28,422 nt of DNA from positions 1 through 28,422 of the IMG/VR virus record IMGVR_UViG_3300000553_000254, one strand, 5' to 3'. Made by a program: the position numbers and the translations under genes. The notes beneath the pieces are model-generated. The model searched no databases. It was not told where the DNA came from and saw nothing but the letters and a program-made list of their open reading frames with translations. Positions 1 through 14,043 of the stretch are shown piece after piece. The DNA is from a virus. Within the stretch, counting starts at the first letter, position 1, and each line of letters opens with the position of its first letter.

Positions 1-240
1 CAAATCTTCAGAAGATAAACCTGGAGACTGTTCAAGTATAGAGTCTGTTACTAATGCACTAAAGGTTAAACCACCATGAACATCAATAATTTGATTGAGT
101 TCTTCATAGTGTTTACCATATGCAGGATGCCCTTCAGGTACAATTACATAACCATTACCCCATCCATATGAATCATCATCATCTGATAGGTAAAACGCCA
201 CTGCATAATTTACTATTGATTTTACAACAAAATGTTTCAT
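1..240 (-). CDS. Conserved phage protein of unknown function, C-terminus cut by window edge
   Basis: The reading frame begins at an ATG at 240 and stays open for 80 codons to the left edge, so the C-terminus is missing. It starts MKHFVVKSIVNY and then has an Asp run (DDDD) and a Trp-Gly rich stretch (SYGWGNGY). It also carries the phrases GHPAYGKHYEEL and IDVHGGLTFS. I recall similar Gly-His-Pro...Tyr-Gly-Lys and HGGLTFS phrases from small phage proteins in many hosts, none with an assigned function; this is memory, not a search. It lies last in the minus-strand small-gene block, 21 nt beyond the preceding tiny ORF. The leader before the ATG is A-rich with no Shine-Dalgarno, like the other genes here. 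Coding status is fairly sure and function unknown. Confidence 0.75.
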   Translation of the reverse strand, partial: MKHFVVKSIVNYAVAFYLSDDDDSYGWGNGYVIVPEGHPAYGKHYEELNQIIDVHGGLTFSALVTDSILEQSPGLSSEDL

Positions 241-261
241 AGGATTTAAGTGTTTAGTTAT

Positions 262-327
262 TTAATTTGTGAGAAGGTTGATAAGAATACTGGATAATAT
301 TGCAAACAGGGCCGGCGTTACTATCAT
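262..327 (-). other. Possible frameshifted second half of a small two-helix membrane protein
   Basis: An ATG-started 21-aa frame reads MIVTPALFAILSSILINLLT plus one residue and a stop; it is strongly hydrophobic. Upstream in the same frame, with no stop back to about position 363, come residues FYVNDRFFRK, a typical charged loop between two membrane helices. The neighbouring 36-aa frame (344-454) supplies a first helix in another frame. A single-base shift near 345-360 would join them into one protein of about 60 residues. Either this is a tiny separate peptide or the gene is broken by an indel or sequencing error. The sequence alone cannot decide. Confidence 0.3.
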
Positions 328-343
328 CTTTCTAAAGAATCTA

Positions 344-454
344 TCATTTACATAGAATGTAAACAATAAATATTAGAAGAATACCTATAAGGAAGTAAAG
401 AACAACATCTTGTTTATCAGGTTTATTGTTTGGTTGATTAATGAGTAACGGCAT
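344..454 (-). CDS. Tiny single-helix membrane peptide (36 aa)
   Basis: ATG at 454, stop TGA at 344-346. The product has a polar N-terminus rich in Asn, Pro, Lys and Asp (INQPNNKPDKQD) and then one membrane helix (VVLYFLIGILLIFIVYIL). It starts only 6 nt after the stop of the 75-aa gene at 461-688, a spacing typical of an operon. The amino-acid pattern is that of a real one-helix phage peptide, not random translation. The function is unknown; small early membrane peptides of phages often act on the host envelope, but nothing here shows that. It may be the first half of a two-helix protein (see 262-327). Confidence 0.45.
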   Translation of the reverse strand: MPLLINQPNNKPDKQDVVLYFLIGILLIFIVYILCK

Positions 455-460
455 AACATG

Positions 461-688
461 TTAATTAATATGGGACAGATGAATGATTAAATTCTCGCGG
501 GTAACAGGTTTAAATACTTTACTGCCCGGGAAGATACAGTAATAAAGAAAGCTTCTATTAACATAAGAGATCTTAACATTACCTCCTATACAAACTATCT
601 TCTCTTTATCTTGTATCCCTAGATTATACTCAATAGTAATAACAAGAGTCTCTATGAGAGGAGATAGAAAAGTAATATTAGTATCCAT
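461..688 (-). CDS. Small hypothetical protein (75 aa)
   Basis: ATG at 688, preceded on the minus strand by an A/T-rich leader (TTTAACTTTTTAAATT) and no Shine-Dalgarno. The product starts MDTNITFLSPLIETLVITIEY, contains KEKIVCIGGNVKISYVNRSF and ends in NLIIHLSHIN. Alternating hydrophobic residues suggest a small beta-rich fold, and no motif is recognised. The reading frame fills most of the gap between the SSB-like gene and the membrane peptide, and the next ORF starts 6 nt after its stop. One copy of the repeated AGAGCATTAATA sequence lies about 70 nt upstream. Coding is likely but not certain because of the short length. Confidence 0.55.
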   Translation of the reverse strand: MDTNITFLSPLIETLVITIEYNLGIQDKEKIVCIGGNVKISYVNRSFLYYCIFPGSKVFKPVTRENLIIHLSHIN

Positions 689-757
689 AATTTAAAAAGT
701 TAAAGAAGATACGTGAGTGAGTATGTAGCTATATAGTGTGCTGATTTTTTTGGTTTT

Positions 758-769
758 AGAGCATTAATA
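758..769. promoter_or_regulatory. AGAGCATTAATA repeat, copy A
   Basis: The 12-mer AGAGCATTAATA is repeated in the intergenic DNA of the minus-strand block (also at 1596-1607, and as AGAGCATTCAATA at 1695-1707). This copy is preceded by TTTT and followed by GTAAAATACTA. It sits about 70 nt upstream of the start at 688. Recurrence only between genes suggests a control site; whether it is a promoter part or an operator is open. Confidence 0.4.
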
Positions 770-840
770 GTAAAATACTAGATGGGTAAAGGGTGGATAA
801 TCAAGTAGTTACAGCGTTTACTTAAAGTAAAATCAAATAA

Positions 841-892
841 ATGAAGTGCTTGACATTTGGTTATACTGTACCAATGTCAAGCTTAACTTCAT
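841..892 (-). terminator. Long hairpin downstream of the SSB-like gene, probable terminator
   Basis: The inner stem pairs 849-860 with 871-882 (GCTTGACATTTGG-side against CCAATGTCAAGC, one bulged T) around a 10-nt loop. An outer stem pairs ATGAAGT (841-847) with ACTTCAT (886-892). It lies about 40 nt beyond the stop of the gene at 931-1389. Read on the minus strand it is followed by TTATTTGATTTTACTTT, which is T-rich but not an uninterrupted run. Because it contains two inverted TTGACA sequences, a protein-binding operator is an alternative. Confidence 0.55.
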
Positions 893-930
893 CTATTCAA
901 TTCTCAGCGGTTTCAGCTGTTCAAATTAGA

Positions 931-1389
931 TTAAAACGGTGTTGTTTCATCATCTAATTTAGCATCTGAACCGTTGTCTAATACCGGTTCTTCAACTTCA
1001 GTTTTTGTAACTGCTTGATTTTCAGGTGTTAGTGTGATATTAGCACGTTGTCTAGTGCCAGATTTAAGATTGGCAAAGATTTGTGCGGCATCAAGTTTTG
1101 CTAACTCCTTACCTGAATCAGTGTTTACACGTTTAGCAAGTTCTGCATTCATTAAATCTTCATCTAATGTATCAGCGTAAACACCTGAGTCAGTGATGAT
1201 TAGATCACAAGATCTACCGTGTGCTTGATTAGTAAACCATAATGGTTGAGAAGTTACCTTATCTTCAGCATAGAATTCTCCCTGTGCTATACGGTAAGCT
1301 TTCAATTCAGCAGGTGTACCTGTTACTACATACATAAATGCTACTTCACGTTTTTTGTTTCTGTAGCTACTTTTCAAAATTGCTTTCAT
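931..1389 (-). CDS. Single-stranded DNA-binding protein-like (152 aa, acidic DDETTPF tail)
   Basis: ATG at 1389 after an A-rich leader (CCAAAAACCAAAAACAA), stop TAA at 931-933. The first ~75 residues alternate hydrophobic and polar residues with several basic and aromatic ones (KSSYRNKKREVAFMYVV, SQPLWFTNQ), compatible with an OB-fold. A low-complexity linker of about 35 residues follows. The end is the acidic tip SDAKLDDETTPF. A terminal Asp-Asp...Pro-Phe is the hallmark of bacterial and phage SSBs, where the tip docks replication proteins. crAss-like phages carry an SSB in their replication block, which fits the position. The next gene upstream (1845-2384) ends with nearly the same DAKLD tail. 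The element at 1471-1493 may be its promoter. SSB assignment is inferred from the tail and context, since no OB-fold motif is diagnostic. Confidence 0.6.
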   Translation of the reverse strand: MKAILKSSYRNKKREVAFMYVVTGTPAELKAYRIAQGEFYAEDKVTSQPLWFTNQAHGRSCDLIITDSGVYADTLDEDLMNAELAKRVNTDSGKELAKLDAAQIFANLKSGTRQRANITLTPENQAVTKTEVEEPVLDNGSDAKLDDETTPF

Positions 1390-1453
1390 TTGTTTTTGGT
1401 TTTTGGATTTGTTTAACTGTTTATTTTATATTAACTGATTGATATTCAGGGTT

Positions 1454-1573
1454 TTATATTTGACACCAAATATCACGGCGAAGCCGGGGGCAAGAGAGGT
1501 AAAGAAGATAATCCACAAAGTCATTATACACCCTGTTACTAGAAAGTGTTTTCCCGGGGATTTTGGAGACCAT
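1454..1573 (-). CDS. Possible 39-aa peptide upstream of the SSB-like gene
   Basis: ATG at 1573, stop TAA at 1454-1456. The product starts MVSKIPGKTLSSNRVYNDFV and continues with Asp, Tyr, Leu and a basic end containing RLRRD. The first 28 residues look protein-like. The last ten codons overlap the repeated GCCCCCG element, so the frame there may be accidental. There is no Shine-Dalgarno. It lies 64 nt upstream of the SSB-like start. Weak evidence; it could be noise or a leader peptide. Confidence 0.25.
   Translation of the reverse strand: MVSKIPGKTLSSNRVYNDFVDYLLYLSCPRLRRDIWCQI
1471..1493 (-). promoter_or_regulatory. GCCCCCG/GATA composite element, copy 1 (diverged)
   Basis: Minus-strand reading: TTGCCCCCGGC, 8 nt, GATATTT. 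It matches the other three copies in the G/C core and the GATAT half, but has GGC in place of GTC. This copy carries a mini-hairpin CGGC-GAA-GCCG at 1476-1486 (plus strand), a very stable DNA loop type. It lies 82 nt upstream of the start of the SSB-like gene. Likely a phage promoter or operator; function inferred from recurrence. Confidence 0.5.
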
Positions 1574-1595
1574 TTTACTTAACTCATTGTAAATC

Positions 1596-1607
1596 AGAGC
1601 ATTAATA
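1596..1607. promoter_or_regulatory. AGAGCATTAATA repeat, copy B
   Basis: Exact copy of the 12-mer at 758-769, here followed by AAATATCACTT. It lies in the control region upstream of the SSB-like gene, about 207 nt before its start. Probable regulatory sequence, role unknown. Confidence 0.4.
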
Positions 1608-1667
1608 AAATATCACTTGGAATAGAGAGAAAAATAAGTGTTTTTACGGTGAGCATTAGGCATCAGT

Positions 1668-1687
1668 TGGATTCTGTACAGATTCCA
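1668..1687. promoter_or_regulatory. 20-bp palindrome TGGATTCTGTACAGATTCCA, operator-like
   Basis: Nine of ten base pairs are symmetrical about a central TA (only T1672 opposite T1683 breaks the dyad). Such a dyad is typical of a site for a dimeric regulator. The surrounding 26 nt (1664-1689) recur at 3316-3341 with 21 of 26 identical bases. The half-site GGATTCTGTA also occurs at 3173-3182, ahead of the plus-strand genes. Confidence 0.5.
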
Positions 1688-1694
1688 GCATTTT

Positions 1695-1707
1695 AGAGCA
1701 TTCAATA
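1695..1707. promoter_or_regulatory. AGAGCATTCAATA repeat, copy C
   Basis: Variant of the AGAGCATTAATA repeat with one inserted C, preceded by TTTT as in copy A and followed by CTATATAAC. It starts 8 nt after the palindrome at 1668-1687, so the two may form one control site. Confidence 0.35.
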
Positions 1708-1767
1708 CTATATAACTTATAATAAAATAAATAAACTATATGTTAACGTTTATTTATTTCCCAACTA

Positions 1768-1790
1768 TATCTTACCTGTGACGGGGGCAA
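1768..1790 (-). promoter_or_regulatory. GCCCCCGTC/GATA composite element, copy 2
   Basis: Minus-strand reading: TACTTGCCCCCGTC, 8 nt, GATATAG. It lies just beyond the terminator of the 179-aa gene, where a new transcript toward the SSB-like gene would have to start. It is flanked by a short inverted repeat CTTAC/GTAAG (1771-1775 and 1791-1795). Confidence 0.55.
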
Positions 1791-1805
1791 GTAAGGTAGC
1801 TACGC

Positions 1806-1845
1806 AAAAAAAAGAAAGAGAGCCATTTCTGGCTCTCCTTTCTTT
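1806..1845 (-). terminator. Rho-independent terminator of the 179-aa gene
   Basis: On the minus strand the hairpin has a 7-bp core (GAGAGCC at 1818-1824 paired with GGCTCTC at 1831-1837) and a 6-nt loop. It extends by seven A-T/G-C pairs (1811-1817 with 1839-1845, one bulged C). Eight T residues follow (complement of A1806-A1813). It abuts the stop codon at 1845-1847. Confidence 0.85.
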
Positions 1846-2384
1846 TACTCATCTAGTTTAGCGTCTGCGCTAGACTCTAACACTGCGTGTGCAGGGTTAG
1901 GTTGTTGCGCAGTTTGGGCATGTTGTGAATGTGAGTAATTGGCCATCTGTGCTCTGCGTTGCTCACGTTTCATCTCTGCCTCACGCTCTTCACGTTCTAC
2001 ATCAGCGGCGCCCTTAGCATTGAAGTAAGATTGCTGATACATAAGTGGTTTACGGGTGATGCTTTTGAACCTTGCTTCCTGTATCAATCTTTCAGTATCA
2101 TCTATGAACACTGATTGTCCATTCATAGAGATTGTTAGATAGATAGTTTCACCATCTGCTTCCTCATTACTGCGGAACGTTGGTAATCCATCAGGTGTTT
2201 CCTTGTAAAATTCTTTGTTCTGTGCTTTCAACACAGTTCTGAATTCATTTACAAGTGCTGGGTTCTGACCTGGGTCAACGTGGTAAATATATCCACCAAC
2301 CTCATGTGGTGTAATAATTTTACCTGTAGCCTTGTCTTTTTTCAAATGAATGCCTGCAAATGATGCTGTTACAAATTTCTTCAT
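1845..2384 (-). CDS. Early-region protein with SSB-like shared acidic tail (179 aa)
   Basis: ATG at 2384 after an A-rich leader (CAATTAAAAAAACAATT). The N-terminal ~125 residues form a beta-rich domain (MKKFVTASFAGIHLKKDK, VGGYIYHVDPGQNPALV, ETIYLTISMNGQSVFIDD). A highly charged Glu/Arg helix of about 30 residues follows (EREEREAEMKREQRR), then a Gln/His/Ala-rich linker, then the tip SSADAKLDE. That tip is almost the same as the SDAKLDDE near the end of the neighbouring SSB-like protein, so both may dock to the same partner. It is a single-gene unit: element copy 3 lies 31 nt upstream and a terminator follows at 1806-1845. I do not recognise the family; a replication or ssDNA-binding accessory role is inferred only from the tail and neighbour. 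Confidence 0.7.
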   Translation of the reverse strand: MKKFVTASFAGIHLKKDKATGKIITPHEVGGYIYHVDPGQNPALVNEFRTVLKAQNKEFYKETPDGLPTFRSNEEADGETIYLTISMNGQSVFIDDTERLIQEARFKSITRKPLMYQQSYFNAKGAADVEREEREAEMKREQRRAQMANYSHSQHAQTAQQPNPAHAVLESSADAKLDE

Positions 2385-2414
2385 AATTGTTTTTTTAATT
2401 GTTTATTTATTAAT

Positions 2415-2437
2415 TATCATAAGCAATGACGGGGGCA
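2415..2437 (-). promoter_or_regulatory. GCCCCCGTC/GATA composite element, copy 3
   Basis: Minus-strand reading: TAAGTGCCCCCGTC, 9 nt, GATAATT. The GATA half lies 31 nt before the ATG of the 179-aa gene and just past the terminator of the 85-aa gene, so it is placed exactly where a promoter is needed. No TAnnTTTG host-type box is present in the gap. Short inverted repeat TAAG/CTTA flanks the G/C core. Confidence 0.6.
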
Positions 2438-2452
2438 CTTACTCTGGATTTA

Positions 2453-2480
2453 AAATAAAGGGGTTAAAACCCCTTTATTT
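2453..2480 (-). terminator. Terminator of the 85-aa gene, perfect hairpin
   Basis: Perfect 13-bp inverted repeat (AAATAAAGGGGTT at 2453-2465 against 2468-2480) with a minimal loop, ending 4 nt from the stop codon at 2485. On the minus strand T-rich sequence continues past the stem. The A/T outer stem means it could also act in the other direction, though no plus-strand gene ends here. Confidence 0.85.
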
Positions 2481-2484
2481 AATA

Positions 2485-2742
2485 CTACATATCTTCTTCA
2501 GTTATCTCTTCAAGTAGATGGTAACGTTCTATTAAAGCCTTAACCTCTGAAAGATTATCTAATGTTTCAATAACTTTTATTACATTGTTAGATAATGTAG
2601 TAAATTCATCTTTATCAAAAATGGGTGGATAACAATAATGTGTTAGATACAACTTTAGTTGTTCCTGAACGTTATCTTGTAGTTCCTCTACATTTTTAAA
2701 GATTGTCTTTAAGTGATCCAATGCCTCTGTTGTGTTTCTCAT
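2485..2742 (-). CDS. Small helical hypothetical protein (85 aa)
   Basis: ATG at 2742, stop TAG. The product is acidic and almost wholly alpha-helical by composition, with heptad-like Leu spacing (ALDHLKTIFKNVEEL, NNVIKVIETLDNLSEV, ERYHLLEEITEEDM) and one central Pro-Pro break (YCYPPIF). No motif is recognised. The start follows an A-rich leader (TTTAAAACTTAAACATT). A terminator-like hairpin (2771-2795) lies only 29 nt upstream on the same strand. Transcription from element copy 4 would therefore have to pass that hairpin to reach this gene. The gene has its own perfect terminator at 2453-2480. Confidence 0.65.
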   Translation of the reverse strand: MRNTTEALDHLKTIFKNVEELQDNVQEQLKLYLTHYCYPPIFDKDEFTTLSNNVIKVIETLDNLSEVKALIERYHLLEEITEEDM

Positions 2743-2770
2743 AATGTTTAAGTTTTAAATGATAGTAAAA

Positions 2771-2795
2771 CCCATCGGGCATTGTGCCCAATGGG
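2771..2795 (-). terminator. Hairpin upstream of the 85-aa gene, terminator or attenuator
   Basis: CCCATCGGGCA (2771-2781) pairs with TGCCCAATGGG (2785-2795): 10 of 11 pairs around a 3-nt loop. On the minus strand the stem is followed at once by TTTTAC. There is no T run in the plus direction. It lies 9 nt after a 20-aa micro-ORF and 29 nt before the 85-aa gene, an arrangement like a leader-peptide attenuator. Confidence 0.6.
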
Positions 2796-2804
2796 GGAAT
2801 GTTG

Positions 2805-2867
2805 TTAATCTAATAGAAGCATTACCACTCCCGTGGTAACGTCAACCCAATAACTCTTGTGATACAT
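2805..2867 (-). CDS. Possible 20-aa leader peptide
   Basis: ATG at 2867, stop TAA at 2805-2807. The product is MYHKSYWVDVTTGVVMLLLD. Composition and the Trp-Val-Asp-Val-Thr-Thr-Gly phrase look protein-like. The leader TTTAAAACATACAGT resembles other starts here. The GATA half of element copy 4 is 29 nt upstream, almost the same spacing as for the 179-aa gene (31 nt). The hairpin 2771-2795 follows. It may be a real tiny gene, a leader peptide, or chance. Confidence 0.35.
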   Translation of the reverse strand: MYHKSYWVDVTTGVVMLLLD

Positions 2868-2895
2868 ACTGTATGTTTTAAATTAATAATACTAA

Positions 2896-2919
2896 TATCA
2901 TTAACCATGACGGGGGCAA
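2896..2919 (-). promoter_or_regulatory. GCCCCCGTC/GATA composite element, copy 4
   Basis: Minus-strand reading: TAATTGCCCCCGTC, 9 nt, GATATTA. It shares with copy 3 the exact core, the 9-nt spacer and the distance to the next ATG. It would drive the 20-aa micro-ORF and, by readthrough of the hairpin, the 85-aa gene. Confidence 0.6.
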
Positions 2920-2989
2920 TTACCTGGCTCATAAAAGAATGCTTTCTGGTTTTGGCCCTAATAGGTGAAACATTTCTAGGTAGGATTGA

Positions 2990-3049
2990 CCCCCTAGGGG
3001 GAGAGCAGAACACCCCGGGGGCGGAGCAGGGAGGATCCACCCCCCTCTC
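2990..3049. other. GC-rich island with nested palindromes
   Basis: In otherwise AT-rich DNA these 60 nt are mostly G and C. They include the perfect 12-bp palindrome CCCCCTAGGGGG (2990-3001), CCCCGGGG (3013-3020), GGATCC (3033-3038) and a CCCCCC run followed by TCTCT. The GGGGGC string at 3017-3022 resembles the core of the repeated element but lacks the GATA half. It could be a protein-binding site, an origin-associated structure or foreign DNA. Confidence 0.45.
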
Positions 3050-3283
3050 TAATACAAACTATTTTTGTGGCCATTTAGTCAGTCCAAAATTTTTGGAAAA
3101 ATATTTTAAAGTGAATACCTTAAGGGAGATATGATTAGGGTAATAATTAAGGTTTGGTGTTTTGTCTATATAGGATTCTGTAAGAAGTGTGCTTCCGACC
3201 TATTCTTTTTGCGAATGTTTCTTTTGAATGACATGCTGTCAAAATTATAGTTTCTTACACAAGGTAGATAACTAATAACAGGC

Positions 3284-3348
3284 TTAGGTAAAAGCATGTG
3301 TGCAGATACACTGCGCAGTTAGACCCTGTATAGAATCCAGCTACCTAA
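3284..3348. other. 65-nt hairpin-rich element upstream of the plus-strand block
   Basis: A perfect 7-bp closing stem pairs TTAGGTA (3284-3290) with TACCTAA (3342-3348). Inside is a 7-bp hairpin (TGTGCAG 3299-3305 with CTGCGCA 3311-3317, loop ATACA, one G-T pair), and then 3316-3341, a 21-of-26 copy of the sequence at 1664-1689. It resembles part of a tRNA cloverleaf but lacks D and T arms and CCA. It ends 71 nt before the first plus-strand gene and may act as DNA or as a 5' untranslated RNA. Confidence 0.45.
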
Positions 3349-3419
3349 AGAAAGTTTATTATTCTCTTGCATCCCATGGTATAATTCTTTATATTGTAGT
3401 ATAACTAAATTTTAATATC

Positions 3420-3758
3420 ATGGGATTAGGTAACGGAAATGCCAACGAAGGCAACAAAGGAAGTAACTGGAAGTTTGACTTCTCAGTCCTTACAGGTTTA
3501 TTAGATATTGCATCTACCCTTGGTGGTGGACCAAACCCAACTGTTAGAACTCCGGCTGTGATCAGTTCATCATCTACTGGTACAATTGCTGCAGGTTCTG
3601 TATTAGTAACTATTCAAAATGTTGGTGCTGCCACAGGTACCGTATTAGGAGTGTCTCTCCCAGCTGGTAAATCAATTACATTTTCTGGTAATGGTCAGAT
3701 TGGTGCTATCACTTATGTAGCTACTGGCACTACATTTTTAATTAATACTTTGACGTAA
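3420..3758 (+). CDS. Small Gly/Thr-rich virion or fibre-like protein (112 aa), first gene of the plus-strand block
   Basis: ATG at 3420 after leader TAACTAAATTTTAATATC. The N-terminus is GNGNANEGNKGSNWKFDF, a Gly/Asn-rich opening that I associate with small accessory or fibre proteins of Bacteroidota phages. From residue ~45 it becomes a beta-sandwich-like repeat of Ser, Thr, Gly and Val with repeated short phrases (GSVLVTIQNVGAATGTVLGV, TFSGNGQIGAITYVATG), ending TTFLINTLT. There are no Cys and few charges. It lies alone ahead of a separate promoter box (3800-3807). A structural role is inferred from composition; no enzyme motif is seen. Confidence 0.75.
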   Translation: MGLGNGNANEGNKGSNWKFDFSVLTGLLDIASTLGGGPNPTVRTPAVISSSSTGTIAAGSVLVTIQNVGAATGTVLGVSLPAGKSITFSGNGQIGAITYVATGTTFLINTLT

Positions 3759-4688: not shown

Positions 4689-5060
4689 ATGGCAAACCAA
4701 AATCAAGAACCAACTCCTGAGCAAATAGCCGCGTATATTGCAAGAGTTGAAGAAATTCAAAAGGCTGACATGGCCCAATGGAAGAAAGAAGAATCTTACA
4801 TTAAAGCAAAGAAAGCTCATCTTACTTTAATGGTGGAATTATCTGAGTTAGATCTGCGTTATAAAGTAGCGCGTATGAGAATTGCTCAAATGATGGCTCC
4901 TCAACAACCTGATGAAGACACTGAAGAACAAGATGGTCCTGAACCACAAATGCCTGAAGTTCCCACTAACAAAGTAGCATCAGAACCTCCAGTAGAAGAA
5001 CAAGAAGAAACCAGCAATGGTCTTTCTGAAAACCAAATCCGTAAACTTAAAAAGAGCTAA
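4689..5060 (+). CDS. Helical, acidic-tailed hypothetical protein (123 aa)
   Basis: ATG at 4689 after leader CCTAAACCTATAACA. Residues ~8-70 are one or two long amphipathic helices with alternating Lys/Glu and hydrophobic positions (EQIAAYIARVEEIQKADM, AHLTLMVELSELDLRY, VARMRIAQMM), suggesting a coiled coil. Residues 71-112 are disordered, very acidic and Pro/Gln/Glu-rich (PDEDTEEQDGPEPQMPEVP). A short basic end follows (NQIRKLKKS). The family is not recognised. It is the first gene after a good promoter and ends 1 nt before the thyX start, so the two are translationally linked. Confidence 0.8.
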   Translation: MANQNQEPTPEQIAAYIARVEEIQKADMAQWKKEESYIKAKKAHLTLMVELSELDLRYKVARMRIAQMMAPQQPDEDTEEQDGPEPQMPEVPTNKVASEPPVEEQEETSNGLSENQIRKLKKS

Positions 5061-11280: not shown

Positions 11281-14043
11281 ATGGAAGTATTTAACGGAAT
11301 GCAATTAAAGTCAGGCGCCAAAGCTGACGGTAATAGATTAGGAACACTCATCCAACCCATTCAATTTATTCCCAGGGATAAAAAAGATGAACAATGGACT
11401 GCTTGGAATATAGATTGGCAAGAATGGCAAGGTCTTAAACAGTTGAGACGTAATGCTAGAAGGTTGATGAAGAATTATAAATTAGCCAAAGGGATTATTG
11501 ATAGGACGGATTATATAGTAGAAGAAAATAATGAATACTCTGATCTAATTGATAACCTTACTAAAGAAGATTCAGGAGCTCTTGAGTTAAAGTTTTACCC
11601 TATTATCCCCAATGTCATCAACACAATGGTGACAGAATTTGCTAAAAGAAATACAGAAATCACCTACAAAACCACTGATGACTACTCTTACAATGAAATG
11701 TTTGAGATGAAAAGGCAGCAAATAGAAGATGCTTTGGTATCAGATGCAGAACAAAAGATGCAACAAAAGATGCAGGAGATGGGTGTAGATCCTGAGAGTG
11801 ATGATTTTAAACAACAAATGTCTCCTGACAATATTAAATCACTTCCTGAAATTCAAAGCTTTTTTACTAAGAAATATCAAAATATTCCTGAGCAATGGGC
11901 TGAGCATCAGTATGCTATAGATAAAGAACGCTTCCATATGGAAGAATTAGAAGAGCGTGGCTTTAGAGATTCTTTAATTACTGATAGAGAATTTTGGCAT
12001 TTTAAAATGATGGAAGATGATTATGAAGTAGAACTGTGGAACCCAGTACTTACTTTTTATCATAAGTCTCCTGAAACTAGATATATTTCCCAAGGAAATG
12101 CTGTAGGTAAAATAGAAATGATGACTGTATCTGATGTAATTGACCGTTATGGTTATATCATGACAGAAGATCAGACTAAATCTTTAGAGGCTATATACCC
12201 GGTTAGGTCTGCTGGTATGGCTGTACAAGGTTTCCAAAATGATGGAACTTATTATGATCCTACTAGATCTCATGAATGGAATACTAATATGCCATCTTTA
12301 GGATGGAGACAGTATGCTTCTATGTGGGATAACATGCAAGTAGGGGGTGATATTGTGAATTGGATTACTTCTGAATCAGAAGATTACCTGGATTTAGGTA
12401 CAAGTTACCTATTACGCGTAACAACTGCTTATTGGAAATCACAACGCCGGGTTGGACATCTAACCAAGATTGATGAAAATGGAGTATCTACTATGGATGT
12501 AGTAGATGAGACATATAAGATAACTGATAAACCATTATATAACAATACTCTGATCAAGAGAAAAGATAAAGATAATTTGGTCTTTGGTGAACATATTGAT
12601 TGGATTTGGATTAATGAAACATGGGGTGGAGTTAAAATTGGACCTAATAGACCTAGCTTCTGGGGGATGCCTAATAGCGGTGGTGTAACACCTATGTATC
12701 TAGGTATCAATAAGAATACAATATCTAGACTACCGTTTCAATTTAAAGGTGATAGTACAGTTTATGGTTGTAAACTTCCTGTAGAAGGTGCGGTATTTAC
12801 AGATAGAAATACCAGGTCAACAGCTATGATTGACTTAATGAAACCATATCAAATTGGTTATAATATAGTTAACAATCAAATAGCTGATATCTTAATTGAT
12901 GAGTTAGGTACTGTGATCATGTTAGATCAGAATGCATTACCTAAACATTCATTAGGAGAAGATTGGGGTAAGAACAATTATGCTAAAGCTTTTGTGGCAA
13001 TGAAGAACTTCCAAATCTTGCCATTGGATGGTACTATTGCTAATACAGAAAATGCTATAGGTAATACTCATTTCCAAAAGTTAGATATGGAACAAACCAA
13101 TAGGTTGTTATCCCGTATCAAATTAGGAGAGTATTTTAAACAACAAGCTTTTGAAATCATAGGTGTTAATCAACAACGTATGGGAGAGAACCTGGAGCAA
13201 TCAACTGCAACCGGGGCCAAGATAGCAGTTAATGCATCTTTTGCTCAAACAGAAATGTACTTTATTCAACATAGTGATTACTTAATGCCACGCGTACATC
13301 AGATGAGAACTGATCTGGCCCAGTACTATCAAACAAAGAATCCAACTAATAGACTACAGTATATCACTAATAATGAAGAACGTAAGTTCTTTGAGTTGAA
13401 TGGCACTGATTTACTATTAAGAGATATCAATGTATTTGCAGTTACCAAAGCTTCCATGCGTAATGTTGTAGATCAACTTAAGCAAATGGCCATGAGTAAT
13501 CCTAATACTGGAGCTAGTATCTATGATCTGGCTAATATAATTAAGTCTGACAGTTTGGCTACTATTGAGCAAATCCTTAAAGATTCCGTTGAGAAAGCTG
13601 ACAAGGCTAAGAAGGATGAACAAGAACATGAGTTCAATATGCAACAAGAACAGCTTAAAGCTAAACAAGCTGAAGAACAACAAAAAGCTGAATTCCTTGC
13701 ATCTGAAAATGAAAAAGATAGGCAATCACATATTCTTGAAGCTGAGATCCGTGCTGCAGGTTATATGGCCATGAAAGACTTTAATAATAACGCTCAGTCT
13801 GATTATGTAGATTATATGGATTCTTTACAAAAAGACAAAGTATATCAATCTACTATGGACCTAAATCAGCAAAAGGTTGATAACCAATCTAGAACTCATG
13901 AAGATAAAATGAATATTGCAAGAGAAAAGATTCAAGCACAAAGAGATGCTTCAGAAAAAGCACTTGAAATTGCTAGAACTAATAAGAATAAATATGATGT
14001 TGCTGCTAAGAAAAAGGCACAGGACGCTAAGAAGAAAAAGTAA
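11281..14043 (+). CDS. Portal protein (920 aa)
   Basis: Forms the dodecameric ring at the capsid vertex through which DNA is packaged and to which the neck attaches. Identification rests on position directly between terL and the scaffold/capsid genes, on length, and on portal-like features. These are a helical N-terminus (LKQLRRNARRLMKNYKLAKG), PIIPNVINTMVTEFAKRN, a central region with many Trp/Tyr and the clip/wing-like stretch around WINETWGGVKIGPNRP, and the helical stem with QTNRLLSRIKLGEYFKQQAF. The last ~150 residues are a long Gln/Lys/Glu coiled coil (EHEFNMQQEQLKAKQAEEQQ) ending in Lys-rich KKKAQDAKKKK, probably the barrel/crown facing the capsid interior and DNA. crAss-like portals are similarly large. 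No close alternative. Confidence 0.85.
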   Translation: MEVFNGMQLKSGAKADGNRLGTLIQPIQFIPRDKKDEQWTAWNIDWQEWQGLKQLRRNARRLMKNYKLAKGIIDRTDYIVEENNEYSDLIDNLTKEDSGALELKFYPIIPNVINTMVTEFAKRNTEITYKTTDDYSYNEMFEMKRQQIEDALVSDAEQKMQQKMQEMGVDPESDDFKQQMSPDNIKSLPEIQSFFTKKYQNIPEQWAEHQYAIDKERFHMEELEERGFRDSLITDREFWHFKMMEDDYEVELWNPVLTFYHKSPETRYISQGNAVGKIEMMTVSDVIDRYGYIMTEDQTKSLEAIYPVRSAGMAVQGFQNDGTYYDPTRSHEWNTNMPSLGWRQYASMWDNMQVGGDIVNWITSESEDYLDLGTSYLLRVTTAYWKSQRRVGHLTKIDENGVSTMDVVDETYKITDKPLYNNTLIKRKDKDNLVFGEHIDWIWINETWGGVKIGPNRPSFWGMPNSGGVTPMYLGINKNTISRLPFQFKGDSTVYGCKLPVEGAVFTDRNTRSTAMIDLMKPYQIGYNIVNNQIADILIDELGTVIMLDQNALPKHSLGEDWGKNNYAKAFVAMKNFQILPLDGTIANTENAIGNTHFQKLDMEQTNRLLSRIKLGEYFKQQAFEIIGVNQQRMGENLEQSTATGAKIAVNASFAQTEMYFIQHSDYLMPRVHQMRTDLAQYYQTKNPTNRLQYITNNEERKFFELNGTDLLLRDINVFAVTKASMRNVVDQLKQMAMSNPNTGASIYDLANIIKSDSLATIEQILKDSVEKADKAKKDEQEHEFNMQQEQLKAKQAEEQQKAEFLASENEKDRQSHILEAEIRAAGYMAMKDFNNNAQSDYVDYMDSLQKDKVYQSTMDLNQQKVDNQSRTHEDKMNIAREKIQAQRDASEKALEIARTNKNKYDVAAKKKAQDAKKKK

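Follow-up and report, generated by a model that had tools for sequence, protein, structure and literature searches.

Results

Genes and features at the locus

The stretch of DNA analyzed here (the window, 28,422 nucleotides) is part of a Crassvirales-like phage, whose terminase is about 65–68% identical to those of many IMG/VR contigs and 22–26% identical to those of the listed named crAss-like phages. A near-identical contig of 123,597 bp, G001, spans the whole window in reverse orientation, with 99.0% identity over window positions 1–2491 and 99.8% over 2488–28422. In G001, replication genes (helicases, primase, DNA polymerase, ligase, a Sak4-like protein, and exonuclease) lie on the plus strand between 0 and 35.4 kb, giant and structural genes on the minus strand between 35.5 and 111.2 kb, and small genes on the plus strand between 111.8 and 123.6 kb. 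The first and last genes of this contig (7–591 and 123115–123597; L085 and L091) are 79% identical at the DNA level over 308 bases, so that the two ends of the contig belong to one run of similar genes. The repeated element that is the subject of this work clusters at G001 111.66–113.15 kb, at the head of the plus-strand module and beside the divergent junction; this module is presumed to be early from its gene content and from the genome plan of crAss-like phages.

In the window, the locus is read on the minus strand and holds three small genes. Gene A (931..1389, 152 aa) has homologues in L034 and in L201–L206, in each case the first early gene (33% identity, tblastn E down to 1.5e-6), while gene B (1845..2384, 179 aa) belongs to no known family and has a relative only in the near-identical contig. 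When genes A and B were used as queries, in fact, the twin contig alone was matched, and the gene A relatives were reached via L034; bacterial genome contigs yielded no relative of gene A. Structures predicted for the two proteins were unusable (mean pLDDT of 36 for gene A and 45 for gene B). The two genes end in acidic tails that resemble each other weakly (SDAKLDDETTPF in A and SADAKLDE in B; 34 residues, E 0.02), and that of gene A recalls the tail of single-stranded DNA-binding proteins. Gene C (2485..2742, 85 aa) has no copy of the element of its own; it lies behind a terminator-like hairpin at 2771..2795 and may be read through that hairpin (2795–2771). It is also 14 codons shorter in the window (2485–2527) than in G001 (L090, near 12100–12141) due to an in-frame deletion near the gene end, within DNA that is otherwise 99% identical.

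Terminator-like hairpins are frequent here, with seven found in positions 1–3500 versus 1.7 expected. Those on the minus strand include the one at 2771..2795, which closes the unit headed by the fourth copy of the element, one at 2457..2475, behind gene C and before copy 3, and one at 1815..1840, behind gene B and before copy 2; reading of the sequence also revealed an inverted repeat behind gene A, at approximately 890–843. Between copies 2 and 1 there is an apparent noncoding unit (1490..1767, minus strand) that opens with a 12-bp A/T stem-loop and has a counterpart in L201–L206. At the divergent junction, a GC-rich stretch on the minus strand (2990..3040) contains two further runs of five C, at a place where relatives carry arrays of C5-6. 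Other noncoding similarities were seen between approximately 1669–1692 and 3317–3345 (minus-strand GGAATCTGTACAGAATCCAACTG and GGATTCTATACAGGGTCTAACTG), and a sequence like ATTAATGCTCT occurs in three copies in the window, near 765, 1605, and 1700. No Rfam match was found in the window.

A two-box element in four copies

The minus strand of the window contains four matches to TTGCCCCCG(T/G)C-N8/9-GATA, all intergenic and all oriented toward the small early genes or the apparent noncoding unit. Copy 1 (1471–1493, TTGCCCCCGGC-TTCGCCGT-GATA, N8 spacer) heads gene A; copy 2 (1768–1790, TTGCCCCCGTC-ACAGGTAA-GATA, N8 spacer) heads the noncoding unit of about 270 nt; copy 3 (2415–2438, GTGCCCCCGTC-ATTGCTTAT-GATA, N9 spacer) heads gene B; and copy 4 (2896–2919, TTGCCCCCGTC-ATGGTTAAT-GATA, N9 spacer) heads a short unit with a 20-codon ORF (MYHKSYWVDVTTGVVMLLLD, 2805..2867, minus strand, read from the sequence). 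A preliminary description of this DNA had listed the four copies with their sequences and spacers, and all of them were recovered on re-reading the window, with the single amendment that copy 3, although its sequence is as described, is one base longer once its leading G is counted. The exact form CCCCCGTC-N8/9-GATA was found three times, always on the minus strand, compared to a mean of 0.01 in shuffled sequence and to no instance of three in 100 shuffles. In G001 the elements are unchanged, with the exception of one base in copy 1.

The placement of copies 2 and 3 directly after terminators also held, as they start approximately 25 and 19 nt past terminator-like hairpins. Copy 4 had been said to precede an ATG; this ATG opens only the 20-codon ORF, followed by a terminator-like hairpin, and not the gene at 2485–2742 directly.

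Confinement to the head of the early module

GCCCCCG occurs five times in G001, on one strand only and all within 1.6 kb, and nowhere else in that genome; the fifth occurrence (window 3016–3022) sits in the GC-rich stretch and lacks the rest of the motif. With a weight matrix built from the four copies, these score 23.0–24.7 bits, and the next-best site in G001, which is inside a late gene, scores 15.3 bits, leaving every other site more than 7 bits below them. The genome scan that had been proposed as a check for strand and intergenic bias, run here on a nearly complete genome, gave the pattern expected of a promoter: the element recurs before early units, on one strand and in the orientation of the genes, in the gaps between them at the head of the early module, and nowhere else in G001. 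The same scan found no copy in the remainder of the early module, and the element could thus be, at most, the promoter of the very first units.

The window phage and G001 are the only genomes found to bear the element. Scanning a viral collection for TGCCCCCGTCA-N6-8-GATA returned at least 80 stretches, mostly with single matches and in contigs with a median GC of 0.50, as chance would give. Among the matches listed, and leaving the phage's own contig aside, L126 (41% GC) is the sole contig of 42% GC or less with more than one TGCCCCCG per strand.

An RNA polymerase encoded by the same genome

A search for an RNA polymerase gene outside the window, also suggested in the preliminary description, was successful. 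The product of G001 43,273–53,721, at 3,482 aa, is a homologue of AGO48955, a 2,180-aa protein of phi14:2, with a match across the catalytic part (blastp E 2e-17) and the motif DFDVD. We take AGO48955 to be the published virion RNA polymerase of phi14:2, based on its length and its DFDID motif. In 2021, Drobysheva et al. reportedly found that the early genes of phi14:2 are transcribed by this virion enzyme. No other polymerase and no sigma factor were found among the early proteins scanned, which were part of the set.

A different repeat in the same place in related phages

L201–L206 carry another two-part repeat at the head of every early unit, GGCTACTCT-N3/4-TTACTCTTTG, also written as GGCTACTCT-N3 or N4-TTACTCTTTGTTTA, with a short inverted repeat directly after it. 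The order in the group formed by L034 and L201–L206 is that of the window, namely element, noncoding unit (about 200 nt), element, and gene A homologue, and L204 and L206 have a third element plus a further short unit. Allowing one mismatch, TTACTCTTTGTTTA has two, two, and three matches in contigs of 112,048, 125,557, and 8,890 bp, respectively, all at this locus and on one strand, and is absent from G001, G003, and G011. A pattern scan of the viral collection, run with a spacer of 4–5 where the true spacer is 3–4, gave at least five matches. Like the window element, this repeat has two boxes, a length of 22–24 bp, and one base of freedom in its spacer, is confined to the locus, and heads a noncoding unit and gene A; it differs in having an unrelated sequence, two or three copies, and the inverted repeat that directly follows. 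That two unlike sequences occupy the same place in the same order, with the same length (22–24 bp) and spacer freedom, suggests that they have the same function, which would most simply be that of a promoter.

Runs of C are another feature of this junction. In L102–L116 and L201–L206 at least two runs of 5–8 C precede the first early gene, often 27–29 or 14–15 nt apart, and among the approximately 95 related loci surveyed, such runs gather in groups of three or more almost exclusively here. The C5-6 arrays of the relatives are no more than possible counterparts of the window element: they share CCCCCCGT and their position with it, but are spaced at 14 or 28 nt before the first gene. Consensus folding of the C-run leader of these relatives gave no compensatory changes. 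In L102–L112, the first early gene has a leader (approximately 4925–5000, plus strand) in which a near-invariant block, TATAAGCTATCAACTCCCCTCCTTACTTTTAGC-GGGACTAA-CCCCC, lies just before the ATG; the block includes a short G/C hairpin as well as CCTCCTTA, which is anti-Shine-Dalgarno-like.

Another noncoding element recurs in the early region of related phages, and consists of TTACTTTAATGCA(T/C)CATAAC, a hairpin, and GTAATA. It was located on the minus strand in L079 (1298, 913, and 389) and L077 (2835), and on the plus strand in L103 (5750), L104 (5737), and L108 (6014). Its stems differ yet stay paired (CTCAC/GTGAG, CCGG/CCGG, CTAC/GTAG), and it looks like a structured RNA, with up to three copies in an early region; the L077 and L079 sites have no Rfam match. 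Elsewhere in the early region of L077, positions 1778–1839 (minus strand) match the Rfam family freshwater-1 RNA (RF02979).

Discussion

Our analysis points to the element as an early promoter of bipartite, lineage-specific design, with an injected phage polymerase as its probable reader, an interpretation that on the sequence evidence we would give about an even chance of being correct. In such a promoter, TTGCCCCCGTC would be the upstream box and GATA plus an A or T the downstream box, with 8 or 9 bp between the two; it would drive the transcription units that open the early module, from a start shortly downstream of GATA. Promoter function, start site, and identity of the polymerase are all three what we infer here. 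Several observations favor this interpretation: there are four sites only, intergenic and on one strand, where the early and replication module starts; every copy leads a single unit, with copies 2 and 3 just behind terminator-like hairpins; the spacer has the one-base freedom of two-box promoters; the same contig encodes the homologue of the phi14:2 virion RNA polymerase; and L201–L206 follow the same plan with another locus-confined two-part repeat. Since the element is particular to this phage, is absent from all its other genes, and is replaced by a different repeat in a related group, recognition by a phage-specific transcription apparatus would be most likely, and the first candidate would be the injected virion RNA polymerase, which we name as the reader only tentatively, at clearly less than even confidence. 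It is also possible, though we would hold this view with reserve, that elements of this kind are promoters of crAss-like virion RNA polymerases that change completely between lineages together with the polymerase, while the plan of element, noncoding unit, element, and gene A is kept. What speaks against a promoter is that the remainder of the early module has no copy of the element, even though transcription by the phi14:2 enzyme is reported for early genes generally, that no such motif was found in the phi14:2 stretches examined, and that the complementary flanks of copies 2 to 4 would fit an RNA structure better.

These flanks are, in fact, the best argument for reading the element as RNA, though one that we treat with caution. 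According to this explanation, which we regard as quite unlikely, the element would be a hairpin in the leader of the early mRNAs, with CCCCCGUCA(U) as its loop and a stem of six to eight pairs of variable sequence, and would be bound by a phage protein or stabilize the 5' end. On the sense strand, the bases that flank CCCCCGTCA(T) are complementary in copies 2, 3, and 4, with 8, 7, and 6 pairs of different sequence, and a conserved loop with compensatory stem changes could thus be drawn for three of the four copies; with a shared free geometry and G-U pairs allowed, the sense strand alone gave p values of 0.003 (three copies) and 0.002 (all four). With Watson-Crick pairs only, however, these values became 0.06 and 0.18, an earlier and looser complementarity test was negative, and copy 1 does not fit. 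A figure of 0 in 20,000 shuffles, obtained with the position fixed after the fact, overstates the case for the hairpin. Folding scores were mixed (element z of +0.4, -2.1, -2.3, and +0.3), and copies 2 and 3 follow the terminators so closely that little room would remain for an upstream promoter.

Reading of these units by the host RNA polymerase is unlikely, though worth keeping in view. Flavobacterium promoters have the form TTG-N17-23-TAnnTTTG, and in the host scheme TTGCCCCCGTC would act as an activator box, taking the place of the -33 element or flanking it in the manner of MotA boxes at T4 middle promoters, and GATA(A/T) would be part of a -7/-10 element. Two copies come near this form, with a TTG 16–18 nt before a five-of-six match to the box (GATATTTG in copy 1 and TATAGTTG in copy 2), but a TTTG-like box is lacking in copies 3 and 4, an exact TAnnTTTG at the right distance, as in Bacteroidetes host promoters, is found in none of the copies, and the early proteins scanned, which were part of the set, included no activator of a known family. 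The preliminary description had contrasted the lack of host boxes beside the copies with their presence before plus-strand units; no exact box does lie beside them, but intergenic TAnnTTTG boxes are about equally common on the two strands of G001 (14 versus 15), and their absence beside the copies therefore says little. Operators would also be few, near-identical, and placed before each unit, as these sites are; a repressor or other regulator made by the phage would bind there, next to ordinary promoters that serve the first early genes. We nonetheless consider this very unlikely, as comparison of the four copies revealed neither a palindrome nor a direct repeat common to them within the element, the spacer varies by one base, and no host-type promoter accompanies copies 3 and 4.

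Turning back to the bipartite promoter, a formal parallel is with T4 middle promoters, which have a MotA box near -30 and an AT-rich element downstream. The conserved box near -30 and the AT-rich downstream element are common to both, but T4 middle promoters are numerous and spread across the genome, while the window element occurs four times in 1.5 kb. With phi14:2, the window phage shares the genome plan with its divergent early/late junction and a homologous polymerase, but the phi14:2 stretches examined contain no C-run element. Phage N4 has three or four early promoters close together (PMC4496689), as the window phage would have on our reading. The promoters of its virion RNA polymerase require a template-strand hairpin with a 3-base loop (PMC4496689), and a loose likeness to them had been proposed on account of a mini-hairpin in copy 1, CGGC-TTC-GCCG, whose template strand reads GGCGAAGCC with a GAA loop and whose stem is longer in G001. 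We find an N4-type promoter, in which such a hairpin is read by the virion polymerase, hardly credible, as the 5–7 bp stem and 3-base loop that every N4 promoter has are seen here in copy 1 only, the remaining three copies have no such hairpin, and the crAss-like enzyme is a two-barrel polymerase, a different family from the T7-like enzyme of N4 (PMC10770324; PMC4496689). Thermus phage P23-45 offers a precedent, as its virion and non-virion polymerases likewise use distinct motifs, located upstream of different early gene groups, and mapped start sites assign an AT-rich motif to the virion enzyme and a GC-rich one to the non-virion enzyme (PMC10770324). The pre-early promoters of P23-45 are, like our element, short motifs found only before the units nearest one genome end and ascribed to phage polymerases, but they rest on those mapped start sites, whereas the window element is a predicted promoter (PMC10770324).

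On the whole, the idea of a phage-specific early promoter put forward in the preliminary description is strengthened by the confinement of the element to one strand and to intergenic positions, by the polymerase homologue, and by the analogous repeat in relatives, but not in its appeal to an N4-like hairpin nor in naming the polymerase that reads it. In the open literature that we searched, we found neither a described promoter of a crAss-like virion polymerase nor crAss promoter motifs. The four natural copies of a defined 23–24-bp candidate, together with the second candidate from the related group, are directly testable in vitro, and could show how a two-barrel phage polymerase chooses its start sites. 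If the element is indeed read by the virion polymerase, such an enzyme would recognize a bipartite, C-rich signal.
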